NCBI GenBank assembly: GCA_012845835.1 | Contig: JABAKD010000016.1 | Span: 16,335,625-16,399,624 of the forward strand | DNA: 64,000 nucleotides | From: Undaria pinnatifida | Taxonomy: Eukaryota; Sar; Phaeophyceae; Laminariales; Alariaceae | Reading direction: 5' to 3' | Part shown: piece by piece, positions 13,301-64,000 of the stretch | How positions within the stretch are numbered: position 1 is the first letter of the stretch | Layout: each line of letters opens with the position of its first letter | Position numbers and translations under genes: made by a program | Notes under the pieces: model-generated | Database searches by the model: none | Seen by the model: only the letters and a program-made list of their open reading frames with translations | What the model was told of the DNA's origin: nothing

Positions 13301-15859
13301 TTAGGAGCGCACGCTCCTTGTTCAGTACCAGGGGGCGTACCTGCAGACCGTACCTGGTAGGGTGGTTTGTCGGATTTGACTCTCGTCTTTTCTCAGATTC
13401 AGTTTTGGATGAGAGTCATCCCACGGTACCGGTTGCATTTTTTAGCCAAAAAAAGGTATACCTTTCTGGCTGAGCTCCTCCATTGTGAAATTATCGGTTG
13501 GCATGACAATTTTACGTGTATCTCCGTTTCAGAACTACGGCAGTGCAGAATAAGTGTTGGTTTTGATCGGGTTGCGCGAACGAGAATGTTTTCGACGCCG
13601 TGCTTCGGATACGGTATTGAGCTCCTGATGTTATTAAGAGGAGCTCAGAAACTTCTGCGGCACTCCTATTAATAGCGTGTGGTGACTGATGAAGCAGAGA
13701 CTCCCCACGTGAGGAGCCTCAGAAGCGCATCTAGTTGGTGCTACCGCACAGTGGCATGGTTCAACGGCAACACTCCTCGCCCCTACACTAAGTTGGGGAA
13801 TACATACATGTGGATTAAGATTACCGAGTCAAACTGCGGAGTACATTTCGATTGATGTTACCGAATCTCTCGCAGTTTGTCGAGGCGTGTCTGTGAAGCA
13901 TCCGGTCTGTCCACGTCCGGCGCCATCCATCGCTCGGTGGTGTTGAGAGGCCAGTTCCCAAGGTTTTCCAGGCGGATATCCGGCATTCCCGATCGGGGGC
14001 GGAGGCTAAACTGTGACACATAAAAAAAACATTGCCAGAGATGTTCCATTGCAAAGACAAAATAACAATATCAGAGTCGCTCTAATAATCCCCCTATGCA
14101 TGCAAGCGGACCGAGGCCTGGGAGAGACGCATCAAAAGCGCGAAGAAAAACTGCTGGCGAAAAAACTCGACATTCAAGCTCACGAGTAGTATTGGGATCT
14201 CAACAAAACGTTTTTTTTGGGGGCGTGTAGGAGTCACATGTTATAAGCCTTAGTGTGGGTAAGCTATTGGTCAACCTTTTGCAAGTGGTCAAACAGACTA
14301 ATACCCCACTAATACCTTAACAAATGGCGTCGTCGACAGACCATGTTTTCTTTGGGTCGTGGGTTCAAATCCCGACATCCGCAATACTTCGAAGTAGTAA
14401 ATTTTTCAGACTTTGCCCATGTCGAACTTGAAAGATACTCTCCCCGGTATCCCCAGGAAATGAAACCGCTTGGATATATTGACAGGTCCGCCCGTATATC
14501 CGACCGACCTGCTATCCCGCCGTTTCAGGGGGGAAGAGTGTTAATAAGGCTTAGTTTTGGGTAAGATATTGGTTAACCTTTTGGAAGTGGTCAAACGGAC
14601 TAATACCCCATTAACATCCTTAACACATAGCTGCTTCTGCTTCATCGGCCCGTCTGCTGTTTCCGTTGCTTGATCAGGGTTGCGGCAGAGGGGGGGGTGC
14701 CTCCGTTCTTCACCACAAAATTTGAGCAACTCGCACAAATGACTCCCTACCTTATGGGGAAAAATAATATCTTCACGCGATTTTTTTTTGGCCCGGCATA
14801 GGTTGCGATTCGGTTGCGGATTCATATCGCGCAGTAAAAATAGCACGAGAGCCTGTGACCGCAAAGGGAACAGGTGGGGCACTCGCGCGAGGGGCCCCGA
14901 GCCACAAACAAAAAAAGGCCCACTGTACCCTTGGTCACTTATAGAATGGCGCGCTATAACGCAATTCCCATGAGGCCATGTTGTTGTTGTGTTCACATTA
15001 AACCGTTCTTTCTACCCAACGACATCAGTACACCCAGCGTCCGTGCTGATTCATCCTATAGAGATACAAATTAAGTGGTCACGGACGACTGTGAAACAGA
15101 GCAAACCACGCAGTCGCAATTCATTAAGGTAAAGCAAGTGGAATGCTCGCGTACCGGTTACGAGGACACAACAAAACAAGCCAGACCATAAAAAAAGAGC
15201 AAAAGAAAGGGAAAAATAAAAGAAAAAAAAGCTACGCCATCCGATAATGGGTAAAACCAACAACATGATGGAGAACATAAATCAACACCACCGAAGAGCA
15301 AAGCGTGAAAAAACGCATTCAACACCTTTCTCGTACAAGATCGCTGCAGGGGACACAAAAGGCAGTGCGCGGACGGTGCTAACCTCGGCAGAGCGGCACG
15401 ATCGAACAGGAGCCACGCGAAAACTACCCGTGTGCGGCCGAAGGGCAGGACGACGCGATCCTCCCAGGGAAGACGTAGCGAGAACCTATCGGCGCCGTTT
15501 GAACACGAGCAGCGACCGGGCTGTTAGATGTTTTAAGCATATACCAGGTGTTGGGGTATGCAAGAAGGGATGGAAATCCTATACTATTAATAGTGGTCTG
15601 TAAACCAGGTATCTATACGTTTCGTCTCCCCTCCCCCCCCCCTGCCCGCTGGGGCTGGTGTTCTCCTGCAACCCACATTTGAAAAGCCTCCGTAATTCTG
15701 CCGCTTCGATGTTGCGGCTGAGCCTGAACGCGGCGCCCAATCCATTTCGTTATTATCGCCAGTTAAACCCCCTCCCAGTTTCCCTTGGGCACTGACTGTG
15801 GACGTATTCCATGCGCGGAAAAGAACAGCCGACGACGCCACTCTCTGGAAGTCGGTAAA
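1382..15859 (-). CDS. Multi-exon gene with degenerate EF-hand, unknown function (partial, 3' end unresolved)
   Basis: I do not recognise this gene. Proposed minus-strand exons, in order: 15677-15859 (tentative), 13862-14010, 7452-7631, 5038-5233 (left edge could be 5020 or 5005), 2564-2732, 1382-1497. Each has AG acceptor and GT donor, and the reading phases chain correctly (0-0, 0-2, 2-2, 2-0, 0-1, 1-0), which random exon-like pieces would rarely do. Visible parts are a basic stretch leading into an acidic Glu/Ala/Pro linker (exon at 7.5 kb), a helical GC-rich segment (5.1 kb), and an EF-hand-like loop DDDKDRFIDVDY (2.6 kb) with acidic residues at positions 1, 3 and 5 but Arg for Gly at 6 and Tyr for Glu at 12, so calcium binding is doubtful. 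An acidic exon follows. Introns reach 6 kb and are packed with repeats. No start codon or stop is identified; the gene may run off the left edge. Confidence 0.55.
2027..2289. mobile_element. MITE family A, copy 1
   Basis: A 263-bp element with terminal inverted repeats: it begins ACGCGTGCTACGATAGAG and ends with the reverse complement CTCTATCGTAGCACGCGT. There is no coding capacity. It shares internal sequence (GGTCTTAAG, GGCCAT, TTTTCATCCGGTA) with other copies in the first 14 kb. Confidence 0.6.
3000..3370. repeat. 45-bp minisatellite, about 8 copies
   Basis: The tandem unit includes GGGATGCCTCCAAGGTTTCC and ACACATCGGACATATATACAG, with shortened units at both ends. The unit length is a multiple of three, so several frames on both strands are open throughout. 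That openness is a by-product of the period, not evidence of a gene. It lies between proposed exons of the EF-hand gene. Confidence 0.9.
3370..3490. repeat. Diverged repeat shared with 42460-42700
   Basis: Both sites follow an ACACATCGGACA-like motif with AGATCC, 'GATAGATCCCTGGTCTATA'-like text and a CCCGG/GAGCCG stretch. They are old copies of one dispersed repeat, each adjoining the minisatellite-type motif. Confidence 0.45.
3470..3600 (+). repeat. tRNA-like fragment, possible SINE head
   Basis: Contains GTAGGTTCGAGTCCCCC, a good pol III B-box, downstream of a tRNA-sized region. I cannot fold a full cloverleaf, so a tRNA-derived repeat is likelier than a functional tRNA gene. Confidence 0.3.
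4559..4812. mobile_element. MITE family A, copy 2
   Basis: Diverged copy of the element at 2027-2289 in the same orientation. Its ends are GTGGTACGATAAAGG and CCACCGTAGCACGTG, with the same central landmarks (CATCCGGTA, GAGGTCTTAAGCTCCCA). Confidence 0.55.
5890..6060. repeat. Short tandem repeats of about 55 bp
   Basis: Three to four imperfect copies of a unit containing ATGTTAGGAAA and CTTTTAGTTGGGTCGTC. Non-coding. Confidence 0.6.
6460..6727. mobile_element. MITE family A, copy 3
   Basis: Diverged copy of the same element with ends CGCTCTACGATGGAGGT and ACCTCTATCGAAGTATGCG. Further partial or rearranged relatives are at about 8225-8450, 9035-9345 (reverse), 9895-9975 and 10655-10860. Confidence 0.5.
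7116..7234. repeat. Partial LTR related to 8482-9030
   Basis: Matches the right end of the 549-bp LTR: CCTATACGCACACCTTCAA, GGCATGTGAAA, CCCATATCTT, AATAACATAAC. Confidence 0.55.
8482..9030. mobile_element. LTR of a retrotransposon (549 bp), with adjoining primer-binding-site complement
   Basis: It starts TGTATAATG and ends ATAACA. Immediately left, at 8465-8481, is TCCTGCCGACGACGCCA, which looks like a tRNA 3' end and is the reverse complement of the primer-binding site used by the TRIM-like elements. The retained site implies a minus-strand element with its internal region lost to the left. Homologous pieces lie at about 7116-7234 (partial, same orientation) and 23552-23965 (reverse). Confidence 0.6.
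9975..10352 (-). mobile_element. TRIM-like element, copy 1 (378 bp)
   Basis: Direct terminal repeats at 9975-10059 and 10267-10352 (about 85 bp, ends TGTTA...). Read on the minus strand, the primer-binding site is at 10248-10264, two bases inside the 5' terminal repeat, and the polypurine tract GGGGGAAAGAG (10060-10070 in reverse) abuts the 3' terminal repeat. There is no coding capacity. A T-arm-like hairpin with loop TTCAAAT is at 10214-10230. It sits in a large intron of the EF-hand gene. Confidence 0.75.
10326..10668. repeat. 25-bp satellite grown from a TRIM terminal-repeat end, about 13 copies
   Basis: The unit ACCCAAACTAAGCCTTACAA plus CACTT is exactly the last 25 bases of the terminal repeat at 10267-10352. 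The array runs rightward from that end, with G/A variation at one site (CTTGCCC or CTTACCC) and almost no other change, so the expansion is recent. Confidence 0.9.
10850..11737. repeat. 34-35-bp minisatellite, left block, about 26 copies
   Basis: The unit reads roughly AGTAGCRTGTGTCGCTGTCC then TCTACTGYACTATT. The copies are clearly diverged and were once continuous with 12143-12640. Confidence 0.9.
11742..12139. mobile_element. MITE (PIF/Harbinger-like) inserted in the minisatellite
   Basis: A 398-bp insertion with near-perfect inverted ends of about 42 bp (left GAGTTTTCTGAAAAATGGGA and on; right its reverse complement). It is flanked by TAA on both sides (11739-11741 and 12140-12142), matching the TWA target-site duplication of PIF/Harbinger elements. 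It has no transposase. Confidence 0.75.
12143..12640. repeat. 34-35-bp minisatellite, right block, about 14 copies
   Basis: Continuation of the array at 10850-11737 after the MITE insertion, with slightly more irregular units near its right end. Confidence 0.9.
13045..13305. mobile_element. Small inverted-repeat element (about 261 bp)
   Basis: The ends CCTAACGAAC and GTTCGTTAGG are perfect inverted repeats, extended imperfectly by AAAACAAAAC-like text. The interior is AT-rich with TGTCA and CCTGA motifs. A diverged relative lies at about 31593-31745 in an intron of the zinc-cluster gene. Confidence 0.5.
14239..14625 (+). mobile_element. TRIM-like element, copy 2 (387 bp)
   Basis: Same structure in the opposite orientation: terminal repeats 14239-14322 and 14539-14625, primer-binding site from 14325 (TGGCGTCGTCGACAGAC, diverged from copy 1), T-arm-like GTGGGTTCAAATCCC, and polypurine tract GGGGGGAAGAG at 14528-14538. 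No clear target-site duplication is visible. Confidence 0.75.
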
Positions 15860-17223: not shown

Positions 17224-18630
17224 CGCACTAAAGTGAGACGCCGAGATATCTGGGGACAGTTCGGCACAGTACTCTGTAGACCGAGGTCGTGCCAAGCATT
17301 TTTCAACGCACTAAACTGGGGGGACGCGCACTAAAGGACACAGCACTAAAGCGGGACGACAACTGCACCACGAAAATAGCCGGCCTGATGTCGTCGTCGC
17401 CGTCGTCGTTGTCGTGGTCATTGAAAAAACTAAAGAACGGTTTCATTTTGAGGAGTTCCACACCATCGCAGGCGTTCTAAGGACTGTCTGACCCTCCTCA
17501 AGTCTGACCGCTTCCCTATAAACATAATCTCCGTTGTCGTCGAATCCTCGCTACCCACCAACCTGTCCCGTCACGCCCTGAAGCAAATCAAGCAGCCAGA
17601 CATATCTGCGCTTCGCAATTGCTCGGCTTCCATTCGTCGCTGTCTTGCTCCCCTGGGAAAACAGCACAAGCAAAAAGCACAACACAAGCAACAAGCACAC
17701 AAGCTTTTTTCTGCTCTCTTTTGGAACACAAACCAAGAAGATGGCGCGCTTCGACGACCAGCAGGACTGCTGCCTCGGCGCCGAGGCCTCCTCCTCCTCC
17801 TCCTCCTCCTCCTCCTCGAGGATGTCTGGCTTCAGTCCGGACTTCGTCCTACCGAGGCTCTTTGACTCCCTCGGCCTTGTCGCCAACCCTAAGCTCTTCG
17901 GCGAGGCCCAAGCGATAGCCCTCCGACGGGTGGGGGCGGGACAGGGCGAAAGAGGGGATCAACCTTGTTCCAAAGAATAAAGCAGTCAGCCGCCGCGGCG
18001 CCGGGTATAACCACCTCACGATAGTTTGCCGTACCGGCCAAGTCATCGCCTGGGGCTTCAACCAAGCTCCGCGCAGGGGCCCGTCCGCCAGCGTTCACTC
18101 CGAGGTGAACGCTCTGAGGGCCCTGTTCAACCACCTCAAGAGTGGGCGGGGTGGGAGGTCGCCCCGGCGTGGGGGGTCGGCGCGGCACCACGAGGATGGG
18201 TTCGATCTCGTCAATGTCCGCTTTACTTTCGACTCGCTCCGCATTTCGAAGCCGTGCAGGCGGTGCTGGCTGTTTCTGACGAAGCATTTGTGGCGGTTCC
18301 GACGCGTGATGTACACTACCTCGGACGGGATCGTCATCTGCATGTCGGCGGACGAGTTCGCCGCTGACCCTCCCGACCACATCAGCAAGGGCCATCGCCT
18401 CGACTACTACAAGAAGAAAACGTGCGAGTCGGGTACCTGTCCTTACGAATCGTGCACCTGCTCGAGGGCCTGATCTCTAAAGCGGGTACCTGGTGTAAGC
18501 AGCCGTGGGGCGCGCGTTGGTACCCTTTAGTGCGAGGCCCCAGTTTAGTGCGTTAAAATGCCAGGTACCTCATGTTGTGGCCCCTGGTTAGTGCGGTAAC
18601 CTTGAGTGCGGGACCCCAGCTTAGTGCGGT
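17224..18630. mobile_element. Candidate inverted-repeat element carrying the deaminase gene
   Basis: Copies of a CGCACTAAA motif lie left of the deaminase (17224, 17307, 17326, 17341) and their reverse complements TTTAGTGCG or TTAGTGCG lie right of it (about 18526, 18543, 18590, 18620). The best pair, 17305-17337 and 18524-18554, shares 17 identical bases, a short unmatched spacer, then 11 identical bases, in inverted orientation. Clustered subterminal repeats containing CACTA resemble those of CACTA (En/Spm) DNA transposons, but no transposase and no clear target-site duplication is seen. A non-autonomous element or a captured-gene cassette is inferred. Confidence 0.45.
17741..18473 (+). pseudogene. 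Cytidine/deoxycytidylate deaminase-fold protein, reading frame broken once
   Basis: The start is ATG 17741, followed by a serine run; this frame continues to a TAA at 17978-17980. The second frame is open from 17919 to TGA 18473 and carries the zinc-dependent deaminase signature: HSE near 18096 (zinc His and catalytic Glu), then KPCRRC near 18255 (PCxxC zinc cysteines), with the alternating strand-helix pattern between them. The C-terminus is Cys- and Lys-rich. The family deaminates cytosine-containing nucleotides, nucleosides or nucleic acids; the substrate cannot be told from sequence. The N-terminal part and the domain are in frames offset by one base, so an indel lies between 17919 and 17980, near a G-rich run. 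It may be a true frameshift, a sequencing error, or an unrecognised tiny intron. No convincing intron is seen, unlike neighbouring genes, which suggests retroposition or transfer. It is flanked by inverted repeats. Confidence 0.65.
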
Positions 18631-35400: not shown

Positions 35401-36689
35401 AGTTCGCGACGAAAAAAAAATGGTGTCCACAACTACTGTGAAACCATGCAAAATACCCCGTACGGGAGACGATTGCATCGTGATCCTACTCGTACCGCTT
35501 GCTGCGCGCAACACGCTACTCCCAGACGCTCGAAAATATCGCAATAACAGTCGTTTTTTTTGTAATCGCTACACACGGGTCCCAAAACCTCCCTTGACCC
35601 TTTTAGCACCGCGGTCCCGACACGGGGGGCAAAATACTTGGAGTTTAGACTAGATTTTACTCTCAGGAGTTGGAAATGTGTCAAGTTAGCCTTGTTGGAG
35701 ATGAAAAAATACAAGCAACGGCACGCACTAAGCGCGTACGTAGAGAGAAACACATATATGGCGAAATACAACGTTCGAGAAAGAAGGGCGAATCGAGACG
35801 TGCGCGTACGTAAGCATGCTCCCAGAACAAAATAACCAAACAAGAAGCAAGCACGCAAGCAAGCAAGCAAGCGCCATCGCAAGCAAGCACATCCGAGCGC
35901 CGCCCCCCCCCCCGCCCTTCGGCCCCAATACTATACAATCGACCGCCCCTCCCCTCTCCTCCTCCCTCCCTCGTTCACTCAGTGCCATCGCAAGCAAATA
36001 TATCCAACCGCCCCCCTCCCCCCACTTTGTTTTACAGTCGGCCTCTTTCCCACCCGTCATCCTCCCCCCCCCCCCCCCGCCGCCCCCTGTTCCCTCAAAA
36101 GCGCCAGCACATCCGAGCGCTCCCTCCCCAAAATACTTTACAAAGGGGCCGCCGCTCCTCCCTTCTCCTCCGCTCCCCCTCCCCCCCTCCTTCTCTTCTT
36201 TCTTCCCCCCTATCCCCCATATATTTTTCAATCGGTCGCCCCTCCCTCCCTCCCTCCCTCCCTCCTCCTCCCCCTCCCCCTCCCTGGCTCAACTCACTTC
36301 TTCTCCCTGTAAACACACTCCACGCGCCTCCTTGAGCAGCGCTTGCACGGATGCCCTCCATCACACTTGATTTTGCTCACGGTGCAACCATCGCACGTGG
36401 TCCTCAGCTTCTGATCCTCATCGTGTACGTCTAGTAATGAGGCGTTTCGCTCCACCCCTGCCGTGGGTTCGGCACCAAAGCCCACGCCGACGCTGACACC
36501 AACGGAGGGCTGGCCAGTCATCAGGCCAGTACTGCTGGTAGGGCCACCCCCACCCCCACCGCTAGGGCCACCCCCACCGCTGCTGCTGGTGTTACGGTTG
36601 TTGGGGGTGTTGTTGTTAGCGTTGTTGTTGTCGTTACGGTCGCCTCTGGACCTAGTGAAATCTTCGGCAGCGTCAAAGGCTGCTGCCAT
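27579..36689 (-). CDS. Zn(II)2Cys6 (fungal-type zinc cluster) transcription factor, complete
   Basis: Eight exons, in order: 36298-36689, 34284-34548, 33519-33671, 32957-33076, 32064-32140, 30730-30910, 29942-30138, 27579-29187; 2,994 nt, 997 residues, all phases consistent. Donors include GTGAGT and GTAAGT; the 33519 donor is the least certain. The start chosen is MAAAFDAAED, preceded by an untranslated C-rich tract. The DNA-binding domain at about residues 99-125 has the exact C-x2-C-x6-C-x5-C-x2-C-x6-C spacing, with basic residues between and an RRK-rich linker running across the first splice. Exons 2-5 encode helical segments (for example GYQVVSCYLIMVVYH and FRYIGFAQQAYREL) resembling the middle homology region of fungal regulators. 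Exon 8 holds long Ala, Gly, Ser and His runs, typical of activation or disordered regions. The predicted role is nuclear, sequence-specific DNA binding; the targets are unknown. Confidence 0.85.
29325..29760. repeat. CAAT/CAACC simple repeat in an intron of the zinc-cluster gene
   Basis: Degenerate (AATC)n tetranucleotide tract over more than 400 bp in the last intron. Confidence 0.9.
31383..31515 (+). repeat. Dispersed repeat family C, copy 1 of 4
   Basis: About 140 bp: TTATCCTCCGGCGGATGGGG, AAAATAAAGCTT, CACCACACTTCCACGTATTT, GTGTGTCGATTTAA, CCAACGCTAGCTGG. Other copies: 49836-49990 (+), 50540-50720 (-) and 53036-53196 (-). It lies inside an intron here. The common end TAGGGACAGC is kept in the minus copies. 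No coding capacity. Confidence 0.7.
33835..33960. repeat. Short tandem repeats in intron 2 of the zinc-cluster gene
   Basis: Two copies of a 29-bp unit (CATCAAGGTGGTCAAAACCG) followed by four 13-bp units GGTGATCAATCTG. Confidence 0.85.
35840..36290. repeat. C-rich low-complexity tract in intron 1 of the zinc-cluster gene
   Basis: Plus-strand poly(dC) and TCCC repeats, so G-rich on the coding strand. The GGGA repeats begin about 20 nt after the GTGAGT donor of exon 1 and could form a G-quadruplex. Confidence 0.8.
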
Positions 36690-37029
36690 TAGAAGAGTGT
36701 TCTGTGAGATGATACCGGGGGGGGGGGTGTACCGGCGGATGGGGGAGAGAGATTGGGGGAGGGGGGGGCAGAGGCGGGAAAATAAGGGTGGGAGGGGGGG
36801 GGGGGGGGGGGGAGACGAGAGACAGGGGGGGCGGGCGGTGTGGGCAGCGGAGCATGGGGGGGCGAGAGAGAGAGAGATGGAGGGGAGGGGGTGCAAGAAA
36901 ATATTTAGTTGGCGCCAACAACTAATTGGGGGCTTCAGTCGTATCACCGAAAAGCCACAACAAACTTGCAGCATGGGTCTGATACTACGTACTGCTGTAG
37001 TAGACAGCCCTGTTGCAGGACCGCTGCAA

Positions 37030-39100
37030 TTGGCAAGACGATAGTTGAACAAGTCTCCATTTTTTTTAGTACTTTGTTGAAGTGTCTCCAAACCTATACT
37101 TAGTATTTCAGTACTTGCTGAAGAGATTGGGCAAGGCGATAGTTGAACAAGCCTTCATCTTTTTTTTGCGTGTACTGCTGTACTTTGATGAGGAGATTGC
37201 GGTATTGTCGCTGTGGGGAAAAACGTTATTTTCTTGCTGGTTCTGCCTGTCATAGGTTCAATTCGTCAACTTTCACCAAGCTCGAGTCAGCGCTGTCCAG
37301 CAACCACATTTGACATTTGATCTCGAGACCGAGGCAACCCACGACCAGCCCTCTTCGTTCCGGACATGGCCACATAACAAGAGTGCAGGTGACAGCGCCG
37401 AAGAGTTCATCTTGATTCATGTTGTATCCCGTCACATCCGCAAAAATCCTATTTGTTGCCCGTTGGGAGACGATCGAGAGTTTTCGCCTCTGTTTTCCTT
37501 ACTCCAACCAACCGTCAAATGCATTTTGAACAGCAGCCTGGTCTGCGCGTGCCAAACATCGCCGGCGGTAGTGTGAGCACTGCTGCACACCAGGGTGGGT
37601 CGGAGCCCCTAACGAGCTCGCCGCGTTCAGATTTCACGACGCTGTCGTTGACTTCGTCGAACGAAGGGTGTGGAGACACGAATTTTCGCTGTTTCAAATC
37701 CAAAATTATTTTTCGTCTGAGAAATTCTCAGAGGTTGCCCAAGGTCGCCGTAAGAAATCCATTTTTTTTTAGAAAAAGAGAAAAATTCCAAAACATAGAC
37801 TTAAAAAATTGTAAAAATAAAAAATAATACGGCCGACAGACACACAGCCGCCAAGGAAAATTTCGGCTGGTGCCTCCGAATATTAAACTTTTATGGCTAA
37901 ATCGGCTTGCCAAGAACAACGGTCTATAAGCGATGACGCATTTAGTGTCCGCACTGAGATGTATCAGCACGCGCGCTGGCTATTTTACATATTACGACAA
38001 ATGAGCCATGCTCCACGTTCACACTAGACAGGTAGCACGACCAAACGTCTCATTTCTCGACCGCTTACGCTGGACCTCAAAAGGGTTACACCTGCTGATA
38101 TTGCACAGCGTGTGTACTGCTGTATGTACTGGTGCAGTGCACTTTGTCTTCCTGTTATGTACGTGTACGGTTGTGTTCAGCTCAGCCCTGTTTGCCGCCG
38201 TCGGAGAAGCAGCAGCAGCTAGCAGCAGGAAAATTCGATCTGGGTCGATCGTAAGGGATTTCCAGTGCTGGGGTTGTATTATAGGTTTCTAGAGTAGAGA
38301 TTCAAGGCAGGACTGCGTAGTCCGGCTTGAGTATCGTTTTCTGGTATGAGCGACTGCTGCGTTGTCGTCGTTTGTCGTGCGTGTTGACATATATATGTCA
38401 TGAGCTAGTGGCGCCGCTCGCCAAGCGTGCTGGATTCTTGCTCCGAGAACGAGCGCACAGCAGTCGGACCGGGTGCAGAACAAAACAGTGAACGTACGTA
38501 CAGCAGTATCGTACTCGTACGAGTATTCAAAATGGTAGCCTACTTCCCCGTGTAGCGAACCTGCCTTCTTGTTGGTTCGGCCACAGAGCGGCGCACTGAC
38601 AGCGGCAGCGGTTGCCGTAGCGGTGGCGGCGGTGGTGCGTGTGTCGCTTCTATAATGTACCTAGTAGCGTGTACACCACGCGGAGACTTTTATTTGCCAA
38701 AAAAGCAGACAAAAAACGAAGTTTTATAGTCTAGGCTCGTACTTGTATGTAGAATATGAGCCAGGGCTGTGAGAGGCGAGTTGGAATTGGTCGCGAGCAT
38801 CAGTCGCCACATGTGTATAGAGAGACTTGATCAGCTTTGCTAGCGGTGTGCTTAGAGGGTACACGCTTATTGGCCGGCTGCCAGAGTGTGTTCCCCACAG
38901 CAAACCCTGGGGAAAAAACAATTTATGATACGTATGATACGTGTGTGACGAGTATGATACGTACAACACTCGCAGAGCAGACTGGTCGTGCATGAGTACT
39001 CGTTACAGTGTTATTTTTTTAAGATGCACCGCGTTTTTTATCAGATTTCATTTTCAGCCCCTGTAGAAGACATGCCTCAAAAAAAAGTTGAAACCAACCA
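37030..39100. other. Upstream of the zinc-cluster gene, no gene seen
   Basis: Holds a direct repeat of about 100 bp (37029-37085 and 37130-37190, sharing GGCAAG.CGATAGTTGAACAAG). Open frames at 37310-37577 and 38008-38292 have no family or splice support. A promoter is expected near 36.7-37.1 kb but no element is identified. Confidence 0.4.
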
Positions 39101-39387
39101 AAAACATATGGAGAAACGCGTTCTTACGAGACGACGCTGGGCCAGAGTTTCTGAGATGTCGAAGAACCCCGCCAAAACGGATTGAACGCGACACGTCATC
39201 GAGAGGGGGTGCTGGCGGGAGCATACTTGTGGAGGTGAGCACGTTGTTAGGTGATGTTATTCACGGGGCAACAGTTGATCAGTGGCCAACTTAGAGCTTT
39301 GTTGTGTATGTCTTCAAACCACGCACAAGTCAAGTAGGTATGATACTGCAACACAACAACAATACAAGAAGCAGCAAGCAAGAGACG

Positions 39388-39980
39388 TCGTAACACATGA
39401 CCATTCTCGCGCTTTGAGATGCTTTGCGCATCGATGGCGCCAAGCAACCTATGCTAGGTACAGGCAGCAGGCAGGTGCAATACACATGCCAAGCGAGCCG
39501 AGGCTGTACCTATGCCAGACTGCAGATGCGACGCTTGCACACACGATCTGTACAGCAGCAGAACACTCGTTCCTGCGTTCGTTCGTAATTTTTTTTCCTC
39601 CGCACTTTCATGTCCTATACTATTCCCAAGTAGTCTGTCAAAGTAGGACAGGAAGGAAGACGCACGTATCTTCCGAACAAGACGTCGTACACACACCATT
39701 CCCGCGATTTGAGATGCTCTGCGCATCGATGGCGCCAAGCTATCTTTGCTAGGTACAGGCAGCATGCAGGTATAATACCCATGCCAGGCGAGCCGAGGCT
39801 GAACCTATGTCCGACTGCAGATGCGACGCTTGAACACACGATCTGTACGGAATACAGCAGAACACTCGTACGATTTTTTTTTTCCTTCCCACTTTGATTT
39901 CCTATACTATTTCCAAGTTGATTGTCAAAGTAGGCAGGAAGACGCAGGAGGTATCTTCCGAGCACGACGTCGTACAACAT
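39388..39980. repeat. Tandem duplication of about 295 bp
   Basis: 39388-39680 and 39681-39980 align along their length (GACGTCGTA, GCGCATCGATGGCGCCAAGC, GCCGAGGCTG, CGATCTGTAC, AGTAGG), diverged by substitutions and small indels. Confidence 0.85.
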
Positions 39981-40559
39981 GACCATACTTATGCCTAGTC
40001 TAGTAAAGGCATAAGTATGGTGGAGCTATCTATGCCGTGTTCGGTAGGGAGTCATGATATCTCGTTATTATACCAGAAATAGTATTTCTTTCGTCAAAAA
40101 CACGTTAAAAGTAGGTCAAGGTATCAAAATACTGCCGTACTTCTTTGTTGACTCACGTACTCACTTTGTTGTTCCAGGGTTGCCGTGACCGAAGGTGCCC
40201 TTAAATTTGATATCAGCATTCAACAGCAGGAGGAGCAGTAGTAGCGTGTGCCTCGTTAATTAATGCCTTGAATTAGTATGAATTAATTGAATCCCCCCCC
40301 CCCCAACTCGTGTTCATTAGATTTCACCACCCCCCCCTTTATCGTGTGTATATACCACTGTATTATCAATATTTAATACCTGGCACCTGCTAGTCCTTTG
40401 CAAACACATGTACTGGTACTACCGCAACATAAAACTTGCGCAGCACTTTATCAGTGCTCTACCTGGTCCTGCTGCACGTCTGTAAAAGCATGACGTACGA
40501 CCATATACATCTTGTTCGCACCATGCAAGACACTATCTTATCCGTCCTGTATTCCATGC

Positions 40560-41103
40560 CTGCCCCCCGTTTCAACGACCAGCCACACTGTGCCGGAGGT
40601 CGACGGGGCTGGTGGTTCCTACGATATTGACGTGGAAGCTGACACCAACCCACACAAGGTAAGGCCCAAGAACATACTCAGTCCGAGAAGCTATTTGAAC
40701 TGCGCGCATTTTTTGGGGACGAACAGCTTGGATTTGGAGCCAGCTTGGATTTGTACTACTGTAGGCGATATACCAAGAAGCGAAAAAATAGTGGTACTAC
40801 TCAAGATGGAGATGTAGGTGTTGCACATCAATAATGTAGTGTCGATGCCTATGATACTCCGTTGTTTGTATTATTTATCTTTGTAGTTACGGTTGTGGTG
40901 TGCATCTCACGCTACAGTAATTGTGTGTTTTTCACATCATACGGTATCGTTATTGTATTCTTTCAGGCGTCTATGGCGTTGAGAAGGCAAGCGCATAAGT
41001 TGAGCTTTTGTTTGCTTCTGCTCACAGGTCAAGCCCCAGGCCCGGTTGCGCCCGACGAATGACCCGGAGGCGACGACTGGGCGGCATCCACACGGAGCTC
41101 GGA
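40560..41103 (+). CDS. Tentative 3' exons of a plus-strand gene convergent with the methyltransferase
   Basis: An exon-like stretch ending at about 40662 with the strong donor AAG|GTAAGG reads VPEVDGAGGSYDIDVEADT before it, acidic and with good codon bias. A second block follows the acceptor CTGCTCACAG at about 41026 and is open in two frames, ending in TGA or TAA near 41105. Upstream, 39103-39236 is another open block with a GAG|GTGAGC donor, but its phase does not chain to the next. The product is not recognised and the model is weak. Confidence 0.25.
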
Positions 41104-41288
41104 GACGGCGTCCAAATTGACATAAATTAATACCCAGCCCTTCAGGATTTATCACCGCAACCGAGGGACGTCGCTATCATACGCCGAACATCGATTATTA
41201 TTACGTGCATGCTAACCCTGACCCCTACACCAAGCAAACGCCAACGGTTGCTTTGCCCCCTGCATTCCAAACGCCCCAATGCACCAGT

Positions 41289-44001
41289 CTAAACCGCGAA
41301 AAATACAGCCTGCACAGTAGGTGTCCCATCAGCACAACTCCGGCGCCAAACAAACCACGCCTCCGGTGCATTGCACGGCCTCCCGCGGTACGTTGCCCGC
41401 GGGAGTGCAACAACCGCACTAGGCGGATTTTCTTTGAACCAGTTACCGCGCGCCTTTGTGGGTTCGAGGAATGTCAGCCTCAGCTTGAATGCCACTCCTA
41501 CCCGCGCAATCCGCCAAGCAATACTCAAAATTTCGAAGGCGTTCTTGTACGGGGGGCTAGTAACTATCCAGTCTACAAGGCTTGATTCGTCGGTGAAGGC
41601 CTTGAAGCACGCCTCTGAGGATGCGTCGTAGTGCGTGTCCGCCTGCAAACTGGACGAAGCGAGGCACGCGCACATTTGGGGGGGTTGGGGGGGGGGGGGG
41701 GGGGGGGTTGTTAACCGGTATGCACACAAGTCACAGACTCCACAATCAGCCGCCATTCTGAAGCATTGCCCACAATTCATGTACACAACAAGTGGCCCAA
41801 AATCCAAACGAGTTTTGTACCACGGACTGAGGTATTTCCAATATTATGACGCTGCAAAGCGAGTTTCTAGTTTACGGTGGCGCCCGAAAAGTAGGGACCA
41901 AGGAGCTCTACGACACGCGCGGAGCATTGCGGTACTCGTACTGCTGTACACTCATCCTGGACGCTTGATAAGATCGCACACATTGTTTGTCTGGCGCATG
42001 GGCCCCAAAATGGTTAAGGGGTGTTACATTTATTAAAACTAGTGGTACGACCGCTGCTTGCGCCAGCGGGGCCTGTACGGCAACGGCCCACCCACCCACA
42101 TACACCCATAGACCCACACACCCACCCCACACAACCACCCACCCACTCATTCAACCACACACGCACTCAACAACAACCCACCCATCCACCCACCCACAAT
42201 AATACGTACAGAGAAGGAAGAAAAAAAACAGGCGCTCCTTCTTTCACCGGGGACACCGAGGGCTGCCGTGCGGGGTGGGCTTGGAACGGCTGTGGTGCCG
42301 GCTGGGGTCCGGTGGCGGTCGGGAGAAGCCGGTTTCCCGCAGGGTATAATAAAAAGCAATACACTGTGAAGATCCAAAATAACGTCACGACGCTATCGTA
42401 TTATATTATAAGGATGTTTGCAAGTGTACTATAATATAGAACAAAAACGTCATCTGAGATATCAAGGATTTGCACACATCGGACAGATCAGATCCCCATT
42501 CATGATCTGTGCCGTTCAGGGTAGACAGATCCCTGGTATACATGGTCTGCATGGCCTAGATCATGTTGCCGAGCGTGGAGCCGTGTGGTCTGCATGATCT
42601 AGCATATGTTTCCTGGGTTGGATCTGTGTTACGCAGATCCTGCACAACATATCAGAACGACAGATAGATGTTATAGATCATCTGGATCGTGATCTGTCCG
42701 ACGTGTGAAGTATTTGGCCAAAATCATCTGTGCAAGCAAAATCCTGTACTGCCTTGCACACACAGCAGAGTTTTTATATATTGGTTGCACGTAATAATAC
42801 TAATAATAAGGGGGGCGGGGGGGAGGGGCGGGGGGGGGTACTATTTTATGCTCTTCTGTTTTGATATATTGGTTACATCTGTGTTGCAGACAGCACGAAA
42901 ACAACTCTTTTTGGCCAAAACTGCACTCAAATCGACAACTGAAAAGCACTTTACTTGCGTTTTTTTCCTGCTGTAAAAAGGACCAGTACGTGCGTAAAAC
43001 TTTTTTTGCAGCTCATACAGCAGCAACAGCAAAGCTATCCAGCAGCAGCAACCGTCCCTCACCATCGGTTCAAGTCGTTCGTAGTGACGCGCAGGCCTTG
43101 CTCTGTCAGCACCATTGCCACAGCGTCTCCCTTCGCGCCGCAGATGTCAAGCACCTTTCCCGTAACCTCCACTTTCTCCAAAAGAGCTCGCACCTGCCGC
43201 AATCGAAGCGACGTCGAGCGATATAAGGTTAAGCCAGTGAGAAACGTTGCTATCTGACACAAAAGGATGTCGGCCTCATGAACAGCTCTGCTGCACAACA
43301 CTCGCGTACGTACATACTGGTATATCATACCATACAGCCATACCCCTTTGTTTTTAGAAGCAACGTACAACATGAGGCAGGGCCGTATGATATGAACAAT
43401 GTGTTTATGTTTGCGACACAGCAGTACTTGATCTCAGTGAGTGCGGTCAGTCGCTGCTTGTAAAAACAGCGGAACATATGTGGGCCTGCTCTATGGTCGT
43501 ACAGGCTACACACCACATACGCATGATCATGCGACGTACAGGCAGTCTATCAGGTATACATCATGGGGAGCATGCGACGTACAGCCTATCAGGTATACAT
43601 CATAAACAGCTTCACACCTGAAATGAGGTCGAGGGGTATCGACCAAGAGGTGAGGCTTGACCCGTAGCCATGGTTCCCAACGAACCCTTCTCCGCTTTCT
43701 GCTGCTGCGCGATGAACTTCTTGTACATAGAGACTACACAGTCCGTGCGGCAACATACGCATTCACCAGCCACAAAACGCTGCTCCGTAATGTCGCGAGA
43801 GTGCACCCATGCGGCTCCAACACTAGCAGTCCATTGCTCCAGCGCCGACCAGCAAGGACCGCTCCCCACGTGCCTCCAGCCGACATTCGACCTATCCCGA
43901 GCGCCAGGCCGGCCGCACGCATAGCAGAGCGCAAGCCCTCCTTCCGGATTTGGCTTCCCATGCTGTGCCAGCCCGCAAGCTCCGCGAGACCCCCTCGGCA
44001 T
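41289..44001 (-). CDS. SAM-dependent DNA methyltransferase, SPPY (N4-cytosine) type
   Basis: Three exons, 43618-44001, 43063-43253 and 41289-41649, give 936 nt and 311 residues, ending at TAG 41289-41291. Splice phases agree (CAG|GTGTGA, then TG|GTGAGG with acceptor TCCAG). Residues 1-128 are Cys-rich (CYAC, ECVCC) and unrecognised, perhaps zinc-binding. Around residue 162 is SAM-binding motif I, VLDICGAKGDAVA, with an acidic residue after the next strand (TTNDLN). Around residue 222 is catalytic motif IV, DWIVTSPPYKNAF. The tail has conserved-looking PRATYRG and EAWFVWRR. Motif I before IV fits the gamma order, and T/S-PPY is typical of N4-cytosine methyltransferases, whereas DPPY or NPPY marks N6-adenine enzymes. 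No restriction endonuclease is nearby. The introns argue for a resident nuclear gene, although the family is mostly bacterial or phage. The start could instead be Met at 44055. Confidence 0.75.
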
Positions 44002-44059
44002 GTTTTGCTCAAAAAAACAGGAAAAGTACAGATTTATTCGGTCGATGTTGATCACGAAT

Positions 44060-44135
44060 ATCTCTTCGAATCGAGATCGAACGCGGGACCACCAGCTAAC
44101 TGTGGAAAGCAGAGGACCGTGCCTACTCGGTCTTC
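44060..44135 (-). repeat. tRNA-like sequence just upstream of the methyltransferase start
   Basis: The reverse strand has GCGTTCGATCTCGATTCG (B-box-like) preceded at tRNA spacing by GACCGAGTAGGCACGG (weak A-box). Probably a degenerate tRNA-derived SINE; not a credible functional tRNA. Confidence 0.3.
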
Positions 44136-44139
44136 CGGA

Positions 44140-47100
44140 CGCTTGCCCGCGTTAGAGCCAAGGTATCGGTCGAGAGGCGCTCCGAGAGGCGCTCCTAGGC
44201 ACTCCTCCCAGAATACGACCGTACTTTTCGTCGACGAGTCGGAGGCCCAGAAAAGTTCGATCGCGGACGATCGCAGATAAAAAACAAGGCAGGCACCACT
44301 GGCTTGATGGGCGACACCACTCTCACGAAGTCTGGAGAGATTTCACGCAGAGGGGCCTCTGCTATGACGACAAGTCTGTTTGGTGATGATGGGGGGGGGG
44401 GGTGGTTTGGATAGGTTCCCATGAAAAAAATGCAAAATATTACTGGAAACCCGCAAAACCCAAAAACGGTATTTCTCAGCACCACATAATTGCTCGTGCA
44501 TCAAGGCACGTCGGCGCAAGGCTCTTCTTTTTTGCTGCAGGTGCACCCCGATGCTCATGGCTACCTGACCGTCCTGACAGCTCGAGAAGGTGCCCACTGT
44601 AGCGTGCGCACCATTGACAAACGACGTGATCTAAAAAATGCGGTGCATCTTAAAAAAATAACACTGGTTAAATTTTGAAGAAAAAATATTGCTGCTGCAT
44701 CCATGCTGCATGCTGTTTTCCTTTTTCATCGAAAGAGGCATAATATGTAGAACAATAACAGTCGCCGATCAAATCTCAACGAGAAAAAGAAACGAAAAAT
44801 GAAGGGATTTCTGCATTTTCAGCTGGTATTTCGAGCCGATCCCCCGCAACAGAACGCCAGCACAAGCAAGACTACTACTACTATTAATACTACTGTAGAA
44901 AATGCTCGAACAGAAAAAGTACAAGGAGCCCTGGCTCGGTTGGGGTATTTACGTGCATGCCGCTGTACATGCACGAATACACGCAGCAAAAAAAGTCATC
45001 GTTTGATAATTTTTGTTGGTGTCACATAGCAGTGTCGGCGGCGTTGTTTTCGTGGATTGGTGAGGAGCTCTGCTGTTGCGCCCGTGGTACAGGTGGTGTA
45101 TTGATACCTCGGTTATAGCCTCAGTTTGTCCGCGGAGTGTACCCACCAGTACTGCTGCTGTGTAGGTACAACTAGACCTTCCATGATGTTGTTGTTCTCA
45201 CATTAACTCGCATAATCAAGTCCGTGGTCACAGGAAAGGCTCCAGTCACTCTGGAGCCAATGAATACCCCAGGGAGAAACACAAACGAACCAAAGGTGGT
45301 ACACGCATATATCACAGCTGACACAATTCATGCCTCCACCAGAAACATATAAAAGTGAAATCGGCGGTGGCAGCCTACGATGTGCCAGGTCCATACTGGT
45401 GCATACGTCTCACTACTCGCGCCTGGAAAAACCGACTATCCCGCTTTCCACCCAAGAAAGACTACCACGTACCAGGTATATATTGCACGTAATACATCAC
45501 TACGCATACGCACGACAGACGCAAGTCAATTGGAAAAAAGAAACAAAGAAAAGAAGAGTAGATAAACGAAAGGAAAGAAACGACAAGAAATCGAAAAAAC
45601 GAAAAAAGGAAGGAAAGAAAAGACAAGAAAAGCAAGAAAAGACAAGACAAGAAGGGGAAGCAAGGAAACGAAAAGAGAAAAAAATGTCATACTATTAATA
45701 GCAGACCCTACGAAGGCACTGACTAAAGACGGCATTGAGCTCATAGAGGGCATCAAGTGCATAATCAATGGCGCTGGGGAGAGAACGCAACATGGCGAAA
45801 AAGTCAGGGCGGTCTTACGTAATCTTGTGACGGCCGTTGGAAGGCCCACAAATTTTAAGACGATGATGGTCAGACCCAGACTTCAGTCTCTTGGGCATGA
45901 CACCCAGGCCCTCTGAAGACGTGGCGTGATTCAATGCTACAAAGGTCTCTGTCTGCGGTGATAGCCCCGCCCAAGTACACAAACTCGATTGTTTGTATAC
46001 CTGGCCGGCTGCATTGACTGCGAATGACACCTTTCCCCCGCCTTGGTTTGCAGGCATATAATCTCTGCTTTCGCCTCGGAGACCGTAAGCCCGAACGACG
46101 AGCACGCAGTCACGATCACCGTCATCATCCTCTCTAGGCCTTCTGATCGCATAATGAATCACCGCGACTCATGAAAAAAAAAGAGCAAAAAAAAATAGGT
46201 ACGACAGCAAGCCTGTTCCTAGAGATCCGACGCCTCCCAAGCGACGGCTATTTTGATCACGCATGAGGCGTGAGCGTGCGTGCACGATATCATAGGTAGA
46301 TGTGATCACAATGGATGATGCCAGACACGTTCGTTGCTTCAGACACGTTGCTTCACTCCAACCATGCATTGCGAATCATGTTGGATGTACTGAACGCGCG
46401 GAAATCAGAACCGGAACAGGGATCAACAGCCGTTTCTGCTTCTTCTGCTGCTTGCTGCTGCGTGCTTGCGCCCGGGGAATGGACGAAGGCACGCAGCATG
46501 AGGCACTTGTTGCTGATGCTGTTGTGGTTGGTTTGATTGTTGTTGGTGCTGTTGTTGTGGTTGGTGTCGTTGTTGGTGCTGCTGCGGCAGTGTTGTTGTA
46601 GTTGCTGCGGGGCAACGTGATTAAGAGCCCACGAGAAGGCTGCAAAAAAATCGAGGACAGCCGGGTTGGTGCACACCCATGTTTGCATCGACGACGCGGA
46701 GCATTTTCAACCACGGGCATGATAGCAAAAAAATGTCAATGACGGGCATCAACAATAAGCACACAGCAGCAGAAGAAGCTGCATCCAGTAAGTACCAGGC
46801 AGGAGCACCAAGCAGCAACAGCTGCTGAGCGATCGGTGGTACCAGGTATATCGTAGCAGCTTTCACTTTCATCATGAATGAGCAGCCTTTTCATGATTTT
46901 TTTGAAGACTAAGCCATGTTAGAGGTCACGACTGATGACCGATGAAGAAATTTATCTTGGGTCACATAATGTTGCGAGAGGTACGAGGAACAGAAACGTC
47001 TAGGAGATTACTCGTACTGCTGTTGTCAATTGGCTGTTGTTGTTGTTTCTGCTGCTGCTGTAGAAGCAGCAGCCTTATACGGAAAGGCAACAGCAGCTTG

Positions 47101-60300: not shown

Positions 60301-63300
60301 GCGGCGCATCAGGCAGCGATGGTGGCGGTAATGGTAGCGGTGGCGATGGTGGTGGTGGCGGTGGTGGCGGTGGTGGTGATGGTGGCGGGGGCAGGAGGAG
60401 AGAGGAGCGCATTGTATACGTCCCTATTGGTGATAGACATCACCGCATTGTCGCCGTTCACCCTTCCGACTCTTTCGCCTTTTCCACTCGGGAGCGAGCA
60501 CCGTGCTTTATCTGCCTCGAGGTCGTTTCCGCGAGAGCGTCTGCGAGAGAGCCGGGAGGGTACGGGCCCCCAGGAGAAGAGGAAGGCGGAGAAGGGGAGG
60601 GAGGGGAGGGGCAGGAGGATGAGAAGGGGGAGAGGCGTAGTGGGATGCTCGGGAGGAGAATGCGCGCCCTGCGGCAGTGGTTGCCGACGGGTGTGGGCTT
60701 CCAGCCGACATTTTTCCGCTCCTCTGGGAAAGAGTGGACGCTCTCGCTGGGCGGGGACGCCGATGGAGCTGGGGTTGGAGATGAGGGAGACTTTGACCGC
60801 CTGGAGAGCACCGTGGCGCGCGAAGGGGCGGGGGCGGGCGAGCGGGGTGGTTCCTTGAGCGGTGGAGGTAGCGGTAGCGGTGGTGGTGGTCGGGGTCGCC
60901 GTCGGAGGGGAAGCCGCACTGAAGGTGGAGGCGGTGGAGATGGAGGGGAGGGAGGGGGTACCACCGAGAAGTACCAGCTGCTGTCGGAAGATGGAGAGGG
61001 GGAGGCGGGGGGAGGGGGGCGGTGTAGGCCGCCAGGGCGTTGGCGGGAGGTTACCAGCGAGTGACGCGAAAGAGTGGTGGGTGGGGGACGGTGGCGGCAG
61101 CATCGGTGGCGGTGGGGTGGGTGGGGGCGCGGGCGCTTCCACTAAGTCGTGGGGGAGTAGCGATGACGATGACCGCAGCGATGAGGGTGCTTGGGGGGCG
61201 AATGCGCCGCCGGGACGGCGGGGGCGGGCGAGAGGTCTCGGGGGGAAATCTTTGTCTGCTCGTGGCGCGGCGTATATGGCTAAAATTGCCGCCATCACGG
61301 GCGCAGGGGAAGACGCGGGGGGTGGGCAAGAGTGCGAGCTTTGCGGGCCCGAGAGCGAGAGTAGTTGTCGCCCTAGTTGTCCTTCGGTGACAAGGAGAGA
61401 TTTGAGCGTAGAGGAAACAGAGGCGAGAGCGGCATCAGAGCGTGGGCTAGGAGGAGAAAGAGTAGAAGAAGGTAAAATTGGGCGCGAGGGAGAAGCTCGG
61501 CGCCAACCTCAGATTTTGTTCAACGAGCTCTGGAAGGACAAGAGCGACCGGTTGCGAAGGTGGGGTACCCGTGGTGGTTGTAAGATTGAGTCTTTTTTTT
61601 TTTTCTCTTGGCTGACGGCCTTGATTTTCTTCTGTCGTTTCTCGCTGGGACGTTCTCGTGTTACGTTTCCGGTCATCCTGTGTAGGTTATCGTGTTTCGG
61701 TTACATTGTGCTTTCATCTATTTCGATTATAATATTTTGGTTATCGTGTTGCGTATACCAGTTCCGGGGAACCCCACAACCCCCCCCCCCAGGCCCAGCA
61801 AATGAGTACGCCCCGCCCCCCCGCACCTCAATGCTGTAGATAGTGGTGCCGGTTCGAGCGGGGCTTACCAATCGCGTTCGCCACTTGCACCATGTTTTGC
61901 CGGCATTTCGTCGCTAGCTATCGGTATGATCCTGTTGATAGCTATCGGTATGTTCTTTGTGATATAAATACTTTTTTACAACCGCTCCCATCCCCTGCTA
62001 CTCCCTCCCACCATTTACTCGTCTGCAAACAAAGAGCGTCGCCGTGGGCGGACGAGCCGGGGTGGAGGCTCCTCCCAGTGATCGTCAAAAGCAACGATGA
62101 CCTTAGGCAGGAGCAGCTCGCGTCGCAACTGCTGTTCGCGATGAAACGCATTCTTCGGGCCGAGGGAGTCAGGGCTTGGCTCCGGCCGTACGACATTGTT
62201 GCCCTCTCATCGGACACGGGGATACTGGAAGCCGTCCCCGATACGATATCCCTCGACGCCCTGAGGAGGTATAGGGGAGGGAAGGGGGAGGATGGAGCGG
62301 CTAGGGGAGGGGAAGGGGGAGGAGAAGGGGCAGGAGGAGGAGGAGGAGGAGCGGAGGGGGATATGTCGGCGTCGCGGTTCAGGTCGGTGGCGAGTTGTTT
62401 GTGAGGTCGGTGGCGACATGGCCTGCCCTTGCCTTATTGCCTGATCAAAATCAAGATCGAAACGAAACTCGTTTTCGAAAACGAAAACGAACGCGAAATC
62501 GAAATGGACATCGAAGCCAAATCGAAGCCAAAATCGAATTCAAAGTCGACATCGAAATCGAAATCAAGATCAAATGCAAGATGGATAATCCCAACCTCAT
62601 TCAACTATCGCAATCGCGATCGCATCCAACGACGTATACGCCGTTCCCCTGCCCGTCGTATGTCAAGTAATTCGACGCTGCCGTCCACATGCAACAGAGA
62701 ATATACCCACAAGGCGCCGATGTCCGCCTGACAAGCCGTTCTTGGTAGGATGCAAGTCACCCTTCGTGCGGCTCGCTCAACACCTTACGGTGCTTCGCGC
62801 TTGGTGCAAGCTATGTCTGCCTGGTCAGTGAACACCCGGCATGCTCCGTCTCGGCATTGCAAGGAATTGAGAGTCTATTGTCTGCAGAGTGCCGCATTTT
62901 TGTATGCGATTCGTGCGTTTGTGGCTCGCTATGTGTTATTAATAGTGATCGAGAAAGACAAGTTACTGTATTTGGCGTACATACCCCGCTCCAACCTGCC
63001 CACCCAACCCACCCACCCAACCACCCACCCCTCTCCGTCGTCTGGTGCTTTTGGCTCGTTCAGCTTGACGGGGTTCTTCGAGGCAAGATTCGGGGCGAAG
63101 GGCACGGAGGGTTTCCAAAAGGCACAGCGGCGTTTTATCGAGAGTCTGGCGGCCTATTCCATCGCGTGCTACCTACTCCAGATCAAAGACAGGTATGACA
63201 CGTACTCCGACACATTGTTCTACTATTTTGGTGGCGATCCTGGGTTCAACATATTTAGCTTCTTTGAGGCGTTGTTCGGGCGAAAAGAACGAAGGGTTTC

Positions 63301-63781
63301 CGAGAGGCGCAGAGGCGTTTTATGTAGAGCCTGGGGGCTTACCCCATCGCGTGCTCTCTCCCCCAGATCAAAGACGGATTGATGCTTGCACGCTCGCACG
63401 CTTGCTTGCTTGTATGTTTGCTCTTGCTTGCTCGCTTGCTTACTTGCACGCTCGCTCACTTGCTCTTCCTACTCTTTATACTCAATCACGCTTCCGATCA
63501 TGCCCCCCGCCCCACCACCAACGCCTCCTCCGATACTCCTTCCCCGTCGCCAAAACAGGCACAACGGGAACATCTTGCTGGATGCTCAGGGCCACGTTAT
63601 CCACGTAGATTTCGGCTTCATCCTTGCAAACAGTCCCGGTGGCAACTTCGGCTTTGAGTTGGCGCCGTTTAAGCTGACCCGCGGCTTTATTAAGTTGATG
63701 GGTGGGACGCGCTCGCGCTGCTTTAGGGAATTCCGAGGGCTTTGTGTCGATACGTTTTTGGCCCTCCGGCGCAACTCTCAG
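57354..63781 (+). CDS. Phosphatidylinositol 4-kinase, type III beta-like, with N-terminal membrane segments (partial)
   Basis: Exons: 57354-57622, 58158-58767, 59427-about 61049, 61147-61559, 62035-62268, 63064-63192, 63559-63781; the intron near 61.05-61.15 kb is unresolved (weak GTTACC donor, CTAAG acceptor). The last exons are beyond the window. The enzyme phosphorylates phosphatidylinositol at the 4-OH, usually at Golgi membranes. The helical (LKU) region at 58.7-59.55 kb reads CLEAFAPQ then LDRCSENLYFAHALEFQLRA. At 60.44 kb, HHRIVAVHPSDSFAF begins the kinase N-lobe. Exon 62035 has the ATP lysine (PVIVK) and DDLRQEQLASQ; exon 63559 has the catalytic loop RHNGNILLD and activation loop DFGF. 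Exon 1 encodes three hydrophobic helices; its AG|GTATGT donor joins exon 2 in phase, but it might belong to another gene. Exon 3 is swollen by poly-Gly inserts. 5' exons are not found. Confidence 0.85.
57625..58050. repeat. GGT/TTGGTG simple repeats in a PI4K intron
   Basis: Degenerate trinucleotide and hexanucleotide tract between the exons ending 57622 and starting 58158, giving long Gly/Val open frames without coding value. Confidence 0.85.
58998..59292 (+). mobile_element. tRNA-derived SINE, copy 2, in a PI4K intron
   Basis: Same family as 48481-48790, plus strand: CCGGTCGCCCCGG head, A-box region TGCTGTATCAGG, B-box GAGTTCGAGTCC, body with GGATTGCTGAATCC and tail CCAGAAGCTGAAAGTACA. It lies between exons ending 58767 and starting 59427. 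Confidence 0.8.
63222..63372 (+). pseudogene. Decayed duplicate of a PI4K catalytic exon, inside an intron
   Basis: This stretch repeats the exon at 63064-63192 (FFEARFG...QIKDR) almost along its whole length: matching blocks include the TTCTTTGAGGCG start, GGCGTTTTAT, CCATCGCGTGCT and CCCAGATCAAAGAC. It has indels that break the frame, an internal stop in the original frame, and the GT donor after AAAGAC is changed to GGAT, so it cannot be spliced in place of its parent. It looks like a tandem exon duplication that failed or decayed. Confidence 0.8.
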
Positions 63782-64000
63782 GTATGGTGTGGTGTTGGTA
63801 TTGTGTTGTGTGGTTTTGGTATGGCATGGCATGGGATAGTATGGTATGCTCGCCCATGGGCAAGAGAATGTGCTGTGCGGGACCGTATACTCGCCTTTAT
63901 AGCCCATCCCGATCCCAAACCCCACCCCAGGCTACTATTAGTAACGCCCGCCGCCTTCAGCACCATTGGAGACTGTCCTGTGGTCACGGACTAGATTATG

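Follow-up and report, generated by a model that had tools for sequence, protein, structure and literature searches.

DNA transposons of algae that carry an accessory DNA methyltransferase gene are already known. The nearest precedent is in Ectocarpus, where the 21.5-kb Sola-1 element Sola1-1_Ec32 is described as encoding a ParB-methyltransferase of 1104 aa (PMC12477816). In bdelloid rotifers, N4CMT has the catalytic motif SPPY, which is that of most bacterial N4C enzymes and typical of such enzymes, and which has been shown to be necessary for 4mC in N4CMT (PMC8885841). For the brown algae themselves, DNA methyltransferases are said, in the excerpt available, to be lacking apart from homologues of DNMT2 (PMC13076208), the low cytosine methylation reported in Saccharina was put down to DNMT2, as there was no other enzyme to account for it (PMC6916402), and transposon silencing is termed largely unknown (PMC12477816).

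The locus described here is in the kelp Undaria pinnatifida, in a stretch of 64,000 nucleotides of contig JABAKD010000016.1 that is referred to as the window. On its minus strand, from an ATG at 44001 to a stop at 41289, there is a three-exon gene in which a Cys-rich region is joined to a methyltransferase domain (Table 1).

Table 1. Features of the transposon and of the methyltransferase gene, in positions of the window
Feature	Position	Strand	Remarks
DNA transposon, family A copy	39006..44666	.	5,661 bp; terminal inverted repeats, 4-bp target-site duplication; copy L110 on contig C38
Target-site duplication GTTA, left	39002..39005	+	
Left terminal inverted repeat	39006..39040	+	CAGTGTTATTTTTTTAAGATGCACCGC..., 35 nt, 97% complementary to 44632-44666
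Transposase-side remnant	39006..41113	+	Matches 5' side of the C2 gene region, main pieces 90-97% identical
Internal direct repeat	39400..39848	+	Two 154-nt copies, 39400-39553 and 39695-39848
17 residues of remnant	41063..41113	+	Identical to first 17 of the C2 transposase-like long open frame
Exon 3	41289..41649	-	Motif IV TSPPY (41561-41547), C-terminal part, stop
Intron 2	41650..43062	-	GT-AG, 1,413 nt
Exon 2	43063..43193	-	Motif I VLDICGAKGDAVA at 43154-43116
Intron 1	43194..43617	-	GT-AG, 424 nt
Exon 1	43618..44001	-	Cys-rich domain (about residues 1-105) and start of methyltransferase domain with GRYPSTSFQ
5' subterminal block	44484..44623	-	Kept between families A and B
Right terminal inverted repeat	44632..44666	-	On 5' side of methyltransferase gene
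Target-site duplication GTTA, right	44667..44670	+	

The transposon and its copies in the genome

The initial annotation had put the methyltransferase at a eukaryotic nuclear locus. Nuclear it is, but its carriage within a multicopy DNA transposon, with terminal inverted repeats (TIRs) and target-site duplications (TSDs), had been missed, and the picture of a host writer of DNA methylation is replaced. When the genome (511,146,479 bases in 68 contigs) was searched for matches to the exons, there were at least 55, which were grouped into at least 28 methyltransferase loci. By identity in exon 3, five of these loci, at 96–98%, make up family A, and 13 loci, at 70–73% over the whole of exon 3, make up family B; the remaining loci are more distant or partial. 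The copy on contig C38 (L110) is 97.5% identical to the window element over 5,328 aligned bases (39379–44666) and ends at the same two bases (39006 and 44666 in the window), with a TSD of its own, CACG.

The elements are 5.7–6.4 kb long, and a 4-bp TSD was found by script at 9 of the 12 distinct two-ended copies, in keeping with a TIR DNA transposon of the cut-and-paste type. On inspection by eye, GTGT stands next to a shortened end in L122, a 5-bp ATTAT is present in L117, and L113 has no TSD. For family C, no element ends were found at L126. In the Academ superfamily, an XPG nuclease or a helicase is encoded with the transposase; no nuclease or helicase domain was found in Pfam scans of the reading frames submitted, which come from an incompletely assembled transposase gene. 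AcademX DNA transposons are described as having a TSD of 3 or 4 bp and as encoding a nuclease (PMC10045372), whereas no nuclease was seen in the window element family, and the 4-bp length of its TSD does not by itself assign it to a superfamily.

Elsewhere in the window, several inverted-repeat pairs about 3.9–4.5 kb apart (9974–10352 with 14239–14626) surround arrays of 25-bp and 34-bp tandem repeats, and this region (9974–14626) is likely to be a further mobile element, or one that bears a satellite. There are also phosphatidylinositol 3-/4-kinase exons on the plus strand at 61844–63991 (PF00454, E 4.4e-9 and 7e-18), a Zn(2)-Cys(6) binuclear cluster domain, fungal by its Pfam name, on the minus strand at 36297–37154 (PF00172, E 3.5e-8), and one plus-strand frame at 17919–18470 with weak RCC1-repeat and deaminase-like matches, below the cut-off.

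Structure of the methyltransferase gene

Both introns carry stops in all three frames, and it is only once the two are removed that motif I is followed by motif IV, DWIVTSPPY (41573–41547, minus strand), in the gamma order. This had been seen in the initial annotation, as had the union of a Cys-rich N-terminal region with the methyltransferase, and both are confirmed. The three exons proposed there also stand; the start of exon 2 does not, having been misplaced by 60 nt, such that the product of 311 residues is corrected to 291 aa. The acceptor at 43255/43254, which gives the longer product, was dropped in favour of that at 43195/43194, since the conservation with family B begins at 43200 and the profile score is higher. 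The 291-aa product scores 146.8 bits on a profile built from 32 relatives, viral and plasmid, compared with 140.1 bits for that of 311 aa; in the shorter product the GRYPSTSFQ from the end of exon 1 lines up with the relatives' N-terminal Y-x-T-P stretch (motif X), which accounts for the difference. It is therefore most likely that exon 2 starts at 43193 and that the protein has 291 aa.

The gene is predicted to be spliced. The donor and acceptor sequences are identical across the printed copies of families A and B, and the same exon structure is found in family C, in partly decayed copies. In one of these (L126) every readable splice signal is intact; in another (L129) the exon 2 acceptor reads CG instead of AG and the second donor GC instead of GT. 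Bacterial contamination is ruled out by the introns with their conserved splice sites, the 26-Mb contig, and the presence of copies across many contigs.

The ATG at 44001, which begins the sequence MPR, is the preferred start, and MPR is also found in L121, L122, L127, and L128. The conserved block 5' of it (44484–44623) may be a promoter, an upstream exon, or a region to which a protein binds at the element end. When this block is joined to exon 1 through the donor CAG/GTAG and the three frames are compared by eye, one of them is stopped in family B and another is out of phase with exon 1. The remaining frame (VCQWCARYSGHL..., with a CxxC) continues into exon 1 in phase, both in the window and in L122, with no ATG in the window. 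The block is thus a possible extra 5' exon, either coding or untranslated.

Conservation and decay

At the DNA level, families A and B align only in the three exons and in the one 5' block at 44484–44623, the conserved part at exon 1 being 43613–43964; there is no alignment across the rest of the introns. The dN/dS ratio is 0.25 over 280 codons for A and B (0.21 for the Cys-rich exon alone), 0.12 over 244 codons for A and C, and 0.17 over 244 codons for B and C, with synonymous sites near saturation in both comparisons with family C. The Cys-rich exon is found upstream, within 8 kb and on the same strand, at 24 of the 28 methyltransferase loci listed.

There are also signs of decay. In eight of the 11 family B copies read (L113–L118, L120, and L123), a 3-bp duplication introduces an in-frame stop close to where exon 1 starts, the other three being open, so the full protein may not be made by most of those copies. 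Both family C copies have stops or a break in frame.

Relatives of the methyltransferase

The window protein has no significant domain in Pfam, nor any match there at E values up to 10, and its matches in PADLOC and NCBIfam are weak (E 0.011 or worse). Searches of solved structures gave chance-level matches only, including a DpnA fragment at E 0.24. In the phage families, residues 129–279 match phrog_799, a DNA methyltransferase, at E 4.8e-14, and the profile of 32 viral and plasmid relatives gives the protein 147 bits. By tblastn (E limit 1), 354 of 50,697 phage records and 25 of 72,556 plasmid records have a match, all below 60% identity, the best being to a Cyanobacterium plasmid (35%, 9e-21). 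A search of viral contigs with the single protein found no relative, whereas alignment-based searches did. Three such scans, of IMG/VR and of prokaryote genomes, together with eight annotated records, gave at least 217 loci with a match to the methyltransferase domain of the window gene, near-identical loci included.

A quick tree was built from 154 relatives, thinned from the matches listed, and three transposon sequences. The three transposon sequences group in a single clade (SH-aLRT 100) with a long stem, which lies inside a supported group of mostly viral contigs and two cyanobacterial plasmid sequences. From its sequence, the enzyme appears to be a gamma-order amino-methyltransferase akin to those of phages, IMG/VR contigs, and cyanobacterial plasmids. 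The proposal that an amino-methyltransferase of prokaryotic or viral type has been acquired, and now has introns and a Cys-rich domain joined to it, in a eukaryotic nuclear genome is supported.

The phrog_799-type phage enzymes and the cyanobacterial plasmid homologues (e.g. WP_330205493.1) share their methyltransferase domain with the window protein, with 35–41% identity over about 140–155 residues in the best matches among those listed. They differ from it in having NPP[FY] rather than SPPY at motif IV, a motif I like EPCxGxG rather than DICGAKG, and no introns, and in the eight proteins translated there is no Cys-rich domain. On Nostoc plasmids (L002 3899–5175 and L008 1908–3225) a related methyltransferase gene is directly followed by a gene for an AlkB-type dioxygenase; these two could possibly be a pair that methylates and demethylates.

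Catalytic motifs and the methylated base

Among the 217 relatives listed, motif IV is NPPF in 164, NPPY in 51, and NTPF or NTPY in two, and in none is it SPPY, even though the search patterns admitted either N or S at the first position. TSPPY is present in the family A, B, and C sequences compared. The Ser is, within the relatives sampled, seemingly peculiar to the transposon clade, and since the relatives have NPP[FY] or NTP[FY] it probably arose in or before that clade. The mark placed may be either 4mC or 6mA. The initial annotation had made the protein an N4-cytosine-like enzyme on the strength of SPPY; with that motif in 0 of the 217 relatives listed and NPP[FY] in 215, the assignment is not supported as it was put.

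Motif I is DICGAKG in the window (family A), DICGATQ in family B, and DYCGAAG in family C, and in departing from the bacterial pattern EPCxGxG it means that activity of the enzyme is not assured.

The Cys-rich domain

The Cys-rich domain probably binds zinc, as judged from its pattern of Cys residues. Its pattern of Cys, His, and Trp (CxxC ... WxH ... CxC ... C) is seen again at the N-terminus of the transposase-like protein described below. An hhalign comparison of the two gave a score of 28.3 (P 0.00087, probability 23%), which was reached by none of 300 column shuffles, although shuffling also breaks the spacing of the Cys residues, and the reversed alignment scored 16.3. With blastp, the protein with the Cys-rich domain matched the transposase at E 0.028 in a set of three proteins. 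Together these are suggestive of a domain common to the methyltransferase protein and the transposase N-terminus. At two other places (C13 1499880–1500260 and C57 12549932–12550312), a Cys-rich exon 1 domain of about 50% identity has no methyltransferase match nearby, and may be joined there to another partner.

The transposase-like gene and its remnant in the window

On contig C2 (14101350–14118700; L131, L133, and L134), 17 kb between two family A distal ends contain a long gene in two inverted copies, an arrangement that could be a true palindrome or an artefact of assembly. Two of its reading frames, when joined, match DUF6589, a family of unknown function, with 37.4 bits (cut-off 27); singly, each frame falls below the cut-off. 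The gene would be the large transposase of the element. The homology of the window to the C2 region stops at 41113, where the methyltransferase part begins, and this is a deletion junction. The remnant and the junction indicate that the window copy is a deletion derivative from which the transposase gene has been lost.

Genome matches to the transposase were grouped by the author into 17 places. Two have a methyltransferase within 12 kb (on C31 and C28) and three have its exon 1 alone (on C37, C22, and C30). At all five, the methyltransferase or its exon 1 is on the opposite strand, downstream or abutting, and N-terminal parts of the transposase are kept, convergent with it. At the other 12 places, eight of which are on C26, neither the methyltransferase nor its exon 1 is present within 12 kb. 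In the distal parts of the family B loci given, a transposase was found by tblastn at L128 only, and nowhere in the genome was an intact element seen that has both genes in full. The convergent layout at the five places would suggest that the ancestral element probably carried two convergent genes.

Origin and possible role of the gene

Starting from the observed element, copies, fusion, selection, transposase remnant, and deletion junction, the explanation that is probably correct is that the methyltransferase–Cys-rich protein is encoded by an accessory gene of a DNA transposon with TIRs. The ancestral element would have had its two convergent genes beginning one near each end, the first for a large DUF6589-type transposase and the second for the protein of 291 aa, in which a probable zinc-binding Cys-rich domain is combined with a gamma-order amino-methyltransferase that would have been acquired on a single occasion from a prokaryotic virus or plasmid. 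With its transposase gene gone, the window copy would need to be moved in trans. The Cys-rich domain, given its resemblance to the transposase N-terminus, would guide the enzyme to the DNA of the element itself; there the enzyme would methylate the amino group of A or C, and the mark may favour transposition, at excision or synapsis, or may hide the element from silencing by the host.

That the gene is instead a captured passenger without a role for the element, hitch-hiking as in a Pack-MULE, would fit a window copy without a transposase gene and the existence of family A copies without the methyltransferase domain (L132, C37). Such a passenger is unlikely, however, in the face of purifying selection between the gene families, with synonymous change between A and C and between B and C near saturation, of a fusion retained at 24 of the 28 loci listed, and of the convergent arrangement at five places. 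The methyltransferase fold might also be altered or dead, in a protein that binds DNA or has a regulatory function, or the enzyme might act on RNA. The absence of the usual GxG from motif I of family B, where family A has AxG, and a motif IV Ser at a position that is Asn in all 217 relatives listed would point this way. On the other side are the TSPPY motif shared by the sequences compared from families A, B, and C, the strong overall constraint, and the relatives' annotation, which is annotation only, as DNA methyltransferases, so that an altered or dead fold is considered quite improbable.

An epigenetic writer domesticated by the host, which like bdelloid N4CMT would place 4mC on nuclear or transposon DNA, is in accord with the SPPY motif, on which N4CMT and most bacterial N4C enzymes rely for catalysis (PMC8885841), and with the retention of TSPPY in families A, B, and C. 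It is rejected as the main reading because of the TIRs, the TSDs, and the number of copies, at many loci; moreover, there is no chromodomain match in Pfam, the relatives listed have NPP[FY], and N4CMT is described as permuted and of subtype beta (PMC8885841), against the gamma order of the window enzyme. A host writer is thus very unlikely here.

The accessory gene could be part of something larger, that is, a selfish element with a modification enzyme of its own, with a targeting domain shared by enzyme and transposase and a 4mC or 6mA self-mark that the element would read or profit from in moving. In a lineage reported to lack DNA methyltransferases, this mark would then be the main nuclear methylation of these kelps, confined to the transposon. 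This is speculative and, on balance, rather doubtful.

Comparison with known systems

In open-licence PMC text, no report of an SPPY enzyme of phrog_799 type with a Cys-rich domain in a DUF6589-associated element with a 4-bp TSD in kelp was present among the matches listed, and no paper was found there for DUF6589 or, by phrase, for methyltransferase-encoding transposons. The presence of such a gene in seaweed transposons is at odds with the statement, in the excerpt available, on the lack of DNA methyltransferases in brown algae (PMC13076208). The gene would be easy to miss, being inside transposons and having no significant Pfam match.

The anti-silencing protein VANC of the Arabidopsis VANDAL elements is a precedent for a protein encoded by a transposon and acting on the epigenetic state of that transposon's family; it is described as causing loss of DNA methylation (PMC10398659), and its likeness to the window protein is one of functional analogy only. 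Bdelloid N4CMT, too, is a eukaryotic SPPY amino-methyltransferase that came from prokaryotes, has gained a further domain, and is linked to transposons. As described, though, it is a host gene with a chromodomain, of permuted beta type and with proven 4mC activity (PMC8885841), whereas the window protein is transposon cargo, of gamma order, with predicted activity. In Sola1-1_Ec32, as here, a DNA methyltransferase (predicted to be N4C or N6A) is fused to another domain and encoded on the strand opposite the transposase in an algal DNA transposon (PMC12477816). There the other domain is ParB, for which the window protein has no Pfam match, and the element is a Sola-1; the window family has a Cys-rich domain in a protein of 291 aa, a phrog_799-like enzyme, a DUF6589-type relative, and 4-bp TSDs. 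Taken with Sola1-1_Ec32, the element described here suggests that prokaryotic DNA methyltransferases were taken up by algal DNA transposons on more than one occasion and combined with different targeting domains.
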